A stretch of DNA of 64,000 nt from Celerinatantimonas diazotrophica (GTDB taxonomy: Bacteria > Pseudomonadota > Gammaproteobacteria > Enterobacterales > Celerinatantimonadaceae), in NCBI RefSeq assembly GCF_004339545.1, contig NZ_SMGD01000014.1:364206-428205 (forward strand). The letters are read 5' to 3'. Shown piece after piece: positions 1,565 to 53,757 of the stretch. Each line of letters opens with the position of its first letter. The first letter of the stretch is position 1. A program made the position numbers and the translations under genes. Under the pieces are notes generated by a model. It was not told the DNA's origin. It saw only the letters and a program-made list of their open reading frames with translations, and ran no database searches.

Positions 1565-1804
1565 TATGACTTCATCTATAGCCTAATCTAACAGCCAATT
1601 ATAATTTTAATAAACTTTACTTTTTCAAAGATACATTTTAATAAGTAGAGATATAAAAGACAATGATAAAAACAAAATATTTAATAAATTCAATTAGTTG
1701 TAAGGTTATCAATATTGAGGGGGAGCTTTATAAAAATGCCATCTGAATCTGAGCGGGTTAAAAGTAGTAAGAATTTATAGATAGGTAATTGAGCGGAGGG
1801 AAGA

Positions 1805-6131: not shown

Positions 6132-6208
6132 TGGTACGACTGAGTGGACTCGAACCACCGACCCCCACCATGTCAAGGTGATGCTCTAACCAACTGAGCT
6201 ACAGTCGT
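6132..6208 (-). tRNA. tRNA-Val(GAC), copy 1 (promoter-distal)
   Basis: A 77-nt cloverleaf with encoded CCA. Acceptor ACGACTG pairs with CAGTCGT with discriminator A; the D arm is GCTC/GAGC; the anticodon loop is TTGACAT giving anticodon GAC (valine); the T loop is TTCGAGT. It has T27, forming a T-G pair at the top of the anticodon stem, whereas copy 2 has C27. Confidence 0.95.
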
Positions 6209-6229
6209 ATTACAGAATATTAATTTGTT

Positions 6230-6306
6230 TGGTACGACTGAGTGGACTCGAACCACCGACCCCCACCATGTCAAGGTGGTGCTCTAACCAACTGAGCTAC
6301 AGTCGT
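6230..6306 (-). tRNA. tRNA-Val(GAC), copy 2
   Basis: Same 77-nt cloverleaf and GAC anticodon as its neighbours, with encoded CCA. It differs from copies 1 and 3 by C27 in the anticodon stem. It is separated from copy 1 by 21 nt. Confidence 0.95.
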
Positions 6307-6327
6307 ATATAAATACTTTTACTTTCT

Positions 6328-6404
6328 TGGTACGACCGAGTGGACTCGAACCACCGACCCCCACCATGTCAAGGTGATGCTCTAACCAACTGAGCTACGG
6401 TCGT
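6328..6404 (-). tRNA. tRNA-Val(GAC), copy 3 (promoter-proximal)
   Basis: 77-nt cloverleaf, anticodon GAC, encoded CCA. The acceptor stem is ACGACCG/CGGTCGT, a compensatory pair change relative to the other two copies. It is transcribed first from the promoter just upstream. Confidence 0.95.
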
Positions 6405-6874: not shown

Positions 6875-7795
6875 TTAACGACCAGATACGCCTGGGCTAA
6901 CTGTCCCATTTTCAATGTGATTGGCACCCCGAAGCATTCCCTGAATCAACTCAGCTGCATCAAATTTAGTTAAGGCTTCGTTTGCACCGACTTGATGAGC
7001 TCGATCCACACTAATCTCGCTTGATAAGGAAGTGTGTAAAATAATATATGACTTAGCAATATTCGGATGGCTACGGACTTCAAAAGCTAATTCATAGCCA
7101 TCTAAACCAGGCATCTCAATATCACTTACTAAAATATCAATACTGTTATCAGTGGCCGTTGACTTCAACATCATGTCAAGTGCAGTTGAACCATCTGCAC
7201 ATACTTCAAATGGAACATTCACATACTCAAGTGCCTCAGATAATTGTCGACGAGCGACTGAAGAATCATCGACGACTAAGATCCGGTGTTCTCTGAGTCT
7301 GGCTCGATCGGTCGCATCAATATTTGCATGGAGATGGTCTTCAGAAGTCGGATAAATATGTGATAAAAGCATCTCGATATCAATCAGTTGAACCATTTGA
7401 TTATCAAACTCTGTTACTCCAAGGACATAAGCTGAACGTCCGACTGCGGTAGGGGCAGGGTGGATGTTTCGCCAATTGCACTCCATAATGCGGTCAATTT
7501 TACGTACCATAAATCCAACCAGCTGACGTTGACAATCTGTCACAATAATGAAGCACTTTTTATATTCTTCTTTTTGAATACTGCGATACCCTACGGCAGA
7601 TGCCATATCAATGATGGGAATCGTTTTCCCGCGAAAAGGGGTAGAACCAATAACATAAGGATGCGATTGAGGAAGAATAGTTAAATGCTGATAAGGGATA
7701 ATTTCACGAACTTTTAGAGTGCCTAAAGCGAATGTCTGCTGCAAAGTTAATTTGAACAGCAATAACCCTTGAGACTGCTGGCTGCTTTGCTTCAT
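6875..7795 (-). CDS. cheV: Chemotaxis coupling protein CheV (CheW-receiver fusion)
   Basis: 306 residues: an N-terminal CheW-like domain (about 10-150) that couples chemoreceptors to CheA, and a C-terminal response-regulator receiver domain (about 170-300). The receiver has the acidic pair in ILVVDDSS and the phosphoacceptor Asp in DILVSDIEMPG. I chose the ATG at 7795 rather than the in-frame TTG at 7810 because AAAGGAA lies at the right distance before the ATG. In the family, phosphorylation of the receiver tunes adaptation. Directly upstream in the same direction is a single-domain CheY, so the pair may be co-transcribed. No other che genes are nearby; the main cluster is presumably elsewhere. 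Confidence 0.93.
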   Translation of the reverse strand: MKQSSQQSQGLLLFKLTLQQTFALGTLKVREIIPYQHLTILPQSHPYVIGSTPFRGKTIPIIDMASAVGYRSIQKEEYKKCFIIVTDCQRQLVGFMVRKIDRIMECNWRNIHPAPTAVGRSAYVLGVTEFDNQMVQLIDIEMLLSHIYPTSEDHLHANIDATDRARLREHRILVVDDSSVARRQLSEALEYVNVPFEVCADGSTALDMMLKSTATDNSIDILVSDIEMPGLDGYELAFEVRSHPNIAKSYIILHTSLSSEISVDRAHQVGANEALTKFDAAELIQGMLRGANHIENGTVSPGVSGR

Positions 7796-51594: not shown

Positions 51595-52011
51595 CTACTT
51601 TTTATGGACAAAACAACTGTCTAGTTGAGCTGATATAGCTTTCAGAACTTCTCGTCGGGTAATAATCCCAATCAATTTATCCTGCTCTACAACTGGATAC
51701 ATTTTAGGTTTTTGGCCCGTAATCATCTGCGCAAGTTCAACAATACTCATTTGAGGGTCAACGGTTAGCACATCTTTGCGCATCACATCATCGACCAATG
51801 AAACCGATTCACAGTGATAGGTATCATCAAGTAAACGATGCACACAATCTTGTTCGGATATCCAACCAACTACATGCAATTGCGCATCACACACTGGCCC
51901 GCCAATTTGATTATGCTGCATGAGTTCATTAACGACCTCAGTCAGTGGCTGCTGAGGATGAAAGATCACCGGTTGAGGCAACATATAATCACGCACAAGT
52001 ATAGATTCCAT
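51595..52011 (-). CDS. Stand-alone CBS-domain protein
   Basis: 138 residues from ATG at 52011, chosen because GGAG precedes it by a suitable distance; the upstream in-frame ATG at 52032 lacks one. Two CBS motifs in tandem: about 8-60 (VRDYMLPQPVIFHPQQPL) and about 70-135 (VMRKDVLTVDPQMSIVELAQMI, VVEQDKLIGIITRREVL). CBS pairs bind adenosyl ligands and often tune a partner. There is no fused catalytic domain and no partner next to it. Probably cytoplasmic. Confidence 0.82.
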   Translation of the reverse strand: MESILVRDYMLPQPVIFHPQQPLTEVVNELMQHNQIGGPVCDAQLHVVGWISEQDCVHRLLDDTYHCESVSLVDDVMRKDVLTVDPQMSIVELAQMITGQKPKMYPVVEQDKLIGIITRREVLKAISAQLDSCFVHKK

Positions 52012-52160
52012 CACCACGCTCCAATTCCACATGCATTGAAATAAGTTTAGTTGCGGTTATAAAAAATGCCTACTATTGCCATCTTTAAAAAATTTTTACC
52101 ACTTAATTGAAGATTTCAAATAGAAAACTTCATGCGAAAAGGAAAATGTTCGCGGTTTCA

Positions 52161-52188
52161 TTGACTCCTCGAGAAAATCTTTTAATAT
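52161..52188 (+). promoter_or_regulatory. Good sigma-70 promoter of a candidate small RNA
   Basis: TTGACT (-35) at 52161-52166 and TAATAT (-10) at 52183-52188 with a 16-bp spacer (or AATATA with 17 bp). The expected start is about 52194-52197. Confidence 0.7.
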
Positions 52189-52194
52189 AAGAGA

Positions 52195-52279
52195 TGTTTA
52201 GTTACCTTTTTGCTGTATTTACAGCTGCTACGCTAAGTAATACCCACTGCAATTCTCCCAATTGCGGTGGGCTTTTTCC
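52195..52279 (+). ncRNA. Candidate small RNA (or terminated leader) upstream of sbcB
   Basis: An ~85-nt transcript unit: promoter as above, a small hairpin (GCTGT / ACAGC, about 52213-52226), an unpaired stretch with CTACGCTAAGTAATA, then a strong Rho-independent terminator (CCCACTGCAATT / AATTGCGGTGGG at 52243-52271, then CTTTTTCC). A U-rich segment near the 5' side and the terminal hairpin with U tail resemble Hfq-dependent sRNAs. It matches none of the well-known sRNAs that I recall. It could also be an attenuator in the sbcB leader. Confidence 0.5.
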
Positions 52280-52353
52280 TTCTGGGCATAGGTGCTCAAT
52301 CAAGACAGTTCTGTTAGCATACGGCTTTGACTTTTTTATGCTGGCTAATGTTC

Positions 52354-53757
52354 ATGACTGATACTTTCTTGTTCCATGACTATGAAACATTTGGGACCTC
52401 TCCGGCCTTCGACCGCCCTGCTCAATTTGCTGCGATTCGAACAGATAGTGACCTAAATCCAATTGGCGAGCCCATTGAGCTCTACTCTCAAATCGCTAAT
52501 GATTATGTGCCAGACCCACAAGCTTGTCTCATCACGGGCATTACCCCACAATTAACCGTACAGAAAGGGATCTGTGAAGCCCGATTTATTGCCCAAATTA
52601 ATACTCATTTCAGCCAACCTCAAACCTGTGGCGTTGGCTATAACAACATTCGCTTTGATGATGAAGTCACCCGTTATACTCTCTATCGTAATTTTTATGA
52701 TCCTTATGCCAGAGAGTGGCAAAATGGCAATTCACGGTGGGACTTAATTGATGTCACTCGCGCTTTTTATGCCTTACGTCCTGAAGGTATTAACTGGCCA
52801 ACCGACGAACAGGGACTGCCTTCTTTTCGTCTGGAAAAATTAACCGCAGCCAATGGTGTCATACACGACAATGCCCACGATGCTCTTGCAGATGTCGAAG
52901 CAACTATTGCACTGGCTAAGTTATTGAAAAAAGCGCAGCCGAAGTTATTTGATTTTGCTCTTTCTCTTAGAGATAAACGCCGAGTTGCTACATTCATGGA
53001 CTTTATCAATCAAAAACCGTTAGTCCACGTTTCTGGAATGTTTGGCGCAAAACAAGGATGTGTTTCTTGGGTATTACCAATGGCTTGGCACCCAACCAAT
53101 AAAAATGCCGTTATCGCAATTGACTTAAACCAAGATGTATCACCGCTCTTTGAATTAGACGGCGAACAGATCAAAAAACGGCTTTATACACCAAAGGCTG
53201 ACTTGGATGGCGAACCACCTATCCCTGTCAAATTAATTCATATTAATAAATGCCCATTTGTTGCTCCAGCCGGAGCCCTTAGTTCCTCCAGAGCAGATGA
53301 GCTTGGCTTAGATCGTCAACAGTGTCGACTCAGCTTAGAAAAACTAAAAAATGCTCAGCAAATACGCGACAAATTAATTGAGGTCTTTAGCGAATCGAGA
53401 AGCTTCGAAAATGACGCAGATGTCGATGGAGAACTTTATAGTGGTTTTATTGGAAAAGGTGACAAGGCATTGATGGAAATGCTTCACAGTAGTGATCCGG
53501 CAGCAATCAGCAAAGAGGCATTTATATTTGAAGATAAGCGTCTTAACCAGCTATTGCTTCGCTATAAAGCACGTAACTACCCTTATGCATTGACCGATGC
53601 CGAACAACAACAATGGATGAGCCATCGCCAAAGTGTCCTACCCGCACAAATTGAAAAAAGATTACTTGATATTGAAACACTAGCGCAAACTCATCAACAT
53701 GAGCCAGCTAAATTAACCATTCTCAAGTCGATTTATCACTACATCGAAAGTCTATAA
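52354..53757 (+). CDS. sbcB: Exodeoxyribonuclease I
   Basis: 467 residues from ATG at 52354 (E. coli 475). The family start MTDTFLFHDYETFG places the first catalytic acids (Asp9, Glu11) as in ExoI; upstream in-frame ATGs have no homology. Further DEDDh residues lie in FDDEVTRYTLYRN and HDNAHDALADVEATI. ExoI digests single-stranded DNA 3'-5' in mismatch repair and recombination. The SH3-like and helical C-terminal parts are complete. The Shine-Dalgarno is weak, so translation may be modest. Confidence 0.96.
   Translation: MTDTFLFHDYETFGTSPAFDRPAQFAAIRTDSDLNPIGEPIELYSQIANDYVPDPQACLITGITPQLTVQKGICEARFIAQINTHFSQPQTCGVGYNNIRFDDEVTRYTLYRNFYDPYAREWQNGNSRWDLIDVTRAFYALRPEGINWPTDEQGLPSFRLEKLTAANGVIHDNAHDALADVEATIALAKLLKKAQPKLFDFALSLRDKRRVATFMDFINQKPLVHVSGMFGAKQGCVSWVLPMAWHPTNKNAVIAIDLNQDVSPLFELDGEQIKKRLYTPKADLDGEPPIPVKLIHINKCPFVAPAGALSSSRADELGLDRQQCRLSLEKLKNAQQIRDKLIEVFSESRSFENDADVDGELYSGFIGKGDKALMEMLHSSDPAAISKEAFIFEDKRLNQLLLRYKARNYPYALTDAEQQQWMSHRQSVLPAQIEKRLLDIETLAQTHQHEPAKLTILKSIYHYIESL

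Follow-up and report, generated by a model that had tools for sequence, protein, structure and literature searches.

A candidate small RNA upstream of sbcB in Celerinatantimonas diazotrophica and a sibling element upstream of glgX

A 64-kb stretch of Celerinatantimonas diazotrophica DNA (contig NZ_SMGD01000014.1, positions 364,206–428,205; hereafter the window) carries a compact element, element A, on the forward strand between a divergent CBS-domain protein gene and sbcB. Most likely, on sequence evidence, it encodes a real, previously undescribed regulatory RNA of about 82 nucleotides (nt) that is kept in the sister species. A shorter sibling, element B, lies elsewhere in the same genome and also has an orthologue in the sister species. 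The features of the locus, in window coordinates, are as follows.

51595–52032, minus strand: CBS-domain protein gene, the divergent neighbour, kept in the sister genome.
52161–52188, plus strand: predicted sigma-70 promoter, TTGACT-16-TAATAT, with a weaker co-located match in the sister species.
52196–52277, plus strand: candidate small RNA (sRNA) element A, about 82 nt, a conserved block with 79% identity to the sister genome.
52197–52211, plus strand: 5′ box TTTAGTTACCTTTTT, 15 nt, a candidate seed that is unchanged in the orthologue and almost unchanged in sibling B.
52212–52225, plus strand: small internal hairpin GCTGT-ATTT-ACAGC, from the predicted fold.
52226–52233, plus strand: segment TGCTACGC, identical in both species and absent from sibling B.
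52243–52277, plus strand: rho-independent terminator with a 12-bp stem and U tail, called from hairpin, tail and covariation.
52253–52261, plus strand: TTCTCCCAA, the terminator loop CTCCC with its closing TT/AA, invariant in all four elements; candidate seed.
52327–53757, plus strand: sbcB (exodeoxyribonuclease I), likely true start 52354.

The terminator stem (52243–52271) has 12 pairs, a CTCCC loop and a CTTTTT tail that runs to 52277, and ranks among the strongest terminator-like hairpins of the window. The predicted fold of 52194–52280 has a free energy of −25.5 kcal/mol (z −3.9) and is more stable than all 200 of 200 shuffles. An earlier note, made from the sequence alone, had described a strong terminator with a U tail, about 85 nt enclosed between promoter and terminator, and a second small hairpin; all three descriptions agree with the element, whose expected RNA spans 52196–52277 and whose small hairpin is the GCTGT/ACAGC pair. 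The note was also right that no plus-strand protein gene ends here, the upstream neighbour being the minus-strand CBS gene and the downstream one sbcB. The predicted promoter consists of a −35 box TTGACT (52161–52166), a 16-nt spacer and a −10 box TAATAT (52183–52188), a 9/12 match. By eye, a weaker −35/−10 pair, TCGACT-17-TAGTAT, occupies the matching place in the sister species.

Conservation was assessed in a family sample of 12 genomes, of which one other (the sister genome) belongs to the same genus as the window genome. Both share the gene order hrpA, CBS gene, element, sbcB. Element A is the sole strong match between their intergenic regions (321 and 735 nt), with 79% identity over 85 nt and an E value of 1e-14; the next best match has an E value of 0.67. 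TTTAGTTACCTTTTT, TGCTACGC and TTCTCCCAA are identical between element A and its orthologue. Around an unchanged CUCCC loop, the terminator stems show three compensatory pair differences and a single G-U change. The orthologue has a predicted fold z of −7.5, and a hairpin of different sequence stands at the place of the small internal one. The conservation upstream of sbcB that the note had proposed to look for was thus found, in the matching position of the sister species. Inspection by eye of sbcB in the family's three remaining genera showed no CBS gene and no such element upstream. A small protein from the open reading frame (ORF) at 52194–52361, which overlaps element A, was considered and rejected: the ORF is absent in the orthologue, and the protein would be leaderless.

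Sibling B was found through a weak model match in the window's own genome (G000:C16, 6585–6636, minus strand). Its sequence is TTAGTTACTTTTTTTA-GGGCCACTATTTCTCCCAATTAGTGGCCCC-TTTTTT, shorter than that of A, and its orthologue in the sister genome lies at L079 1478–1525. In both genomes, B sits between CsrB-like RNA genes and an ORF of 61–67 amino acids (aa), followed by glgX, and no other block of the intergenic stretch compared is as well conserved (86% over 51 nt for B). A and B have in common the 5′ box TTAGTTAC.TTTT and the loop TTCTCCCAA, and their stems are unrelated. An alignment of the four elements anchored at the loop has 97.9% of its stem cells paired, compared with 65% in shuffles, and 9 of 12 stem pairs have changed on both sides. 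TTCTCCCAA occurs 28 and 27 times in the two genomes, and only four of these 55 sites, those of A and B, have a strong hairpin and U tail. The combined two-motif pattern was found twice in each genus genome and four times in the other 388 genomes; a reversed control gave 0 in the two genus genomes and, counted by eye, about 18 in the rest. A loop-and-stem model retrieves exactly the four elements at 48–51 bits, the next best match scoring 24. As sequence elements, A and B therefore appear as siblings in both genomes of the genus. The next full-length match in the window's genome lacks a U tail, is probably coding sequence and was rejected as a further sibling.

The surroundings of sibling B hold several other features. 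Upstream of it, L130 2588–2305 (minus strand; G000:C16 ~7304–7587) is CsrB-like, scoring 65 bits with Rfam CsrB against a gathering score of 71. A second GGA-rich stretch with a terminator, at L130 ~2060–1790 (minus strand), has 15 GGA compared with ~8 expected and is unrecognised by Rfam. The two are possibly tandem CsrB RNAs. In the corresponding position of the sister genome, L079 780–1075 (plus strand) is likewise GGA-rich (15 compared with ~8 expected) and terminator-ended; Rfam Csr models gave no match above chance on it. The 61–67-aa ORF (MTQEKLNYLQMIK...) between B and glgX is conserved (L130 1301–1486, minus strand; L079 1592–1795, plus strand), and Pfam and NCBIfam searches with the L130 copy gave no match. 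Another conserved block (71% over 51 nt) lies ~70–120 nt upstream of B (L130 ~1706–1756, minus strand; L079 ~1332–1382) and includes CGGTATGCT. This block is perhaps the promoter of B, in which case B would be ~125 nt long.

Searches beyond the genus returned no convincing relatives. The note had remarked that the candidate resembles none of the common sRNAs, and indeed no Rfam family matches: a scan of the window found nothing but tRNAs, and the best sub-threshold match to the region of element A reached 18 bits where the cut-off is 40, a chance-level score. Neither A nor B was found in the other 10 family genomes or in ~380 genomes of the order. When 395 genomes of the order were searched with a covariance model of the element, none yielded a convincing homologue; three weak matches look like unrelated terminators, and two of these score on both strands. 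A pattern scan of a genome collection gave two matches, in Flavobacteriales and Franconibacter, which are unrelated organisms, and both fail the element model. Phage, plasmid and viral collections contained no match to the element.

Established here are the element and its conservation, the sibling, the stem that covaries around a fixed loop, and the presence of hfq in the genome (PF17209, 103.9 bits). We favour the reading that 52196–52277 (plus strand) is a stand-alone sRNA gene, and that A and B are probably a sibling pair, restricted to the genus as searched, that represses mRNAs in trans through the CUCCC loop. Element A would be transcribed from its own predicted promoter and end at its own terminator as a free sRNA. 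Its working parts would be the exposed CUCCC terminator loop and probably also the 5′ UUAGUUACYUUUU box. Their partners would be mRNAs encoded in trans, whose translation would be repressed by pairing at G-rich ribosome-binding sites (GGGAG, AAGGU) while Hfq occupies the U tail. Because the loop is invariant while the stem changes freely, and this holds at two unrelated loci, the loop is the likely recognition element. A narrower proposal is that the terminator loop is the main target-recognition site and that A, tied to the CBS/sbcB locus, and B, tied to a Csr/glycogen locus, together define a new regulon; this is possible but doubtful. Such a seed position would be unusual, as the Hfq sRNAs of gammaproteobacteria generally recognise their targets through 5′ or internal seeds.

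C-rich loops of this kind have precedents. LhrC of Listeria monocytogenes is a multicopy sRNA whose CUCCC terminator loop binds Shine-Dalgarno regions (PMC4132741), the sibling sRNAs NmsR of Neisseria bind Shine-Dalgarno regions with C-rich loops (PMC5362039), and a CUCCCA seed is described for AbcR of Brucella (PMC9751625). Together with the hfq gene, these precedents favour a trans-acting sibling sRNA pair. Element A resembles LhrC in being a short RNA with a rho-independent terminator, several copies per genome and CUCCC in the terminator loop. In contrast, LhrC has three CU-rich sites, exists in five copies and belongs to a Gram-positive bacterium, whereas here there are two copies in a gammaproteobacterium and a single CUCCC in element A instead of three redundant CUCCC sites per RNA; no sequence relationship between LhrC and element A was found (no Rfam match). 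The CUCCC terminator loop in several copies supports, by analogy, the view that the element works like LhrC; common descent is unsupported. NmsRA/NmsRB of Neisseria and AbcR1/2 of Rhizobiales are likewise sibling pairs with UC-rich or CUCCCA anti-Shine-Dalgarno seeds. NmsRA and NmsRB are, however, tandem and 70% identical along their length, whereas A and B share two boxes only and are widely separated in the genome. The pair probably works like LhrC, NmsR or AbcR and belongs to none of them. Rna01 of Actinobacillus pleuropneumoniae is an Hfq-associated sRNA of 86 nt that adjoins sbcB and has no Rfam match (PMC9577009), and is thus similar to element A in size, neighbourhood and lack of a known family. 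Homology was rejected, as Rna01 lies on the opposite strand and has a different promoter, and element A has no match in the sampled order genomes; the common sbcB neighbourhood looks coincidental.

Several points weigh against a pair of trans-acting sRNAs. The conservation comparison rests on two species. The boxes of the promoter are present as the note described; taken alone, the match is at chance level, with 6 such matches in 3 kb compared with 7.0 ± 2.5 in shuffles. Because the match is expected by chance, the case for element A rests on conservation. The 5′ box of A is partly paired with 52233–52239 in the predicted fold. No complementary site of the loop or the 5′ box is conserved between the two genomes, 5′-box complements are no commoner than those of a reversed control, and the loop and box sites compared coincide at no orthologous genes except the RNA genes themselves. 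We infer that the element is transcribed, that Hfq binds it, and that it base-pairs with mRNAs and represses them. The start of hrpA was rejected as a target; its GGGAGG in the window is complementary to the loop, and the site is missing in the sister genome. A CUCCC loop will often match GGGAG ribosome-binding sites by chance, and since no site is conserved, no target is named.

The note had left the choice between a free sRNA and an attenuated leader of sbcB. As a cis-acting leader, the promoter would drive sbcB, the hairpin would be an attenuator setting read-through, and the short product would be a by-product. The element does lie directly upstream of sbcB on the same strand in both species, and sibling B is likewise upstream of the small ORF and glgX on their strand. 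However, neither folds nor inspection by eye revealed an alternative antiterminator structure incompatible with the 12-bp stem. The stretch from terminator to sbcB is unconserved and measures 77 nt here but ~255 nt in the sister species. A conserved TAGCATAC about 50 nt before sbcB resembles, by eye, a −10 box and is a candidate promoter of sbcB itself, and sbcB of the other genera lacks such an element. Termination requires a stem and a U tail only; the loop and 5′ box are conserved beyond this need and common to unrelated loci, and a leader leaves the sibling unexplained. We consider the leader unlikely; conservation as a unit, covarying stems and the unrelated second locus better support a free sRNA.

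A loop that stays fixed while its stem covaries would also suit protein recognition, so that the UUCUCCCAA hairpin and 5′ box could form a site for an RNA-binding protein; alternatively, the RNAs could be sponges for another RNA, such as the CsrB-like RNAs that B adjoins. To our knowledge, no protein recognises a CUCCC loop, and the loop pairs with the CsrB-like RNAs no better than with their shuffled versions, so the sponge was rejected for these RNAs. This explanation as a whole appears quite improbable. That there is no functional RNA gene, just a stray promoter-like sequence and a terminator insulating sbcB from upstream or antisense transcription, fits the chance-level promoter match and the lack of a plus-strand gene upstream, which would leave only pervasive transcription to stop. 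It is highly improbable, since the 5′ half of the element is as conserved as the terminator, the boxes are shared with sibling B and the loop is identical in four elements.

Starting from a guess on a single sequence, the analysis arrives at a testable, two-member candidate sRNA family whose boundaries are defined and whose seed is proposed. Its general significance is modest: this would be another lineage-specific sRNA, with a seed position rare in its class. Celerinatantimonas is a nitrogen-fixing, plant-associated lineage, and a strand-specific metatranscriptome of Ca. Celerinatantimonas neptuna has been published (PMC8636270; ENA PRJEB37438). A nifH-family match of ~437 bits occurs in this genus and in two other genera of the family. 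Elsewhere in the window, three tRNA-Val(GAC) genes are arranged in tandem at 6132–6404 (minus strand).
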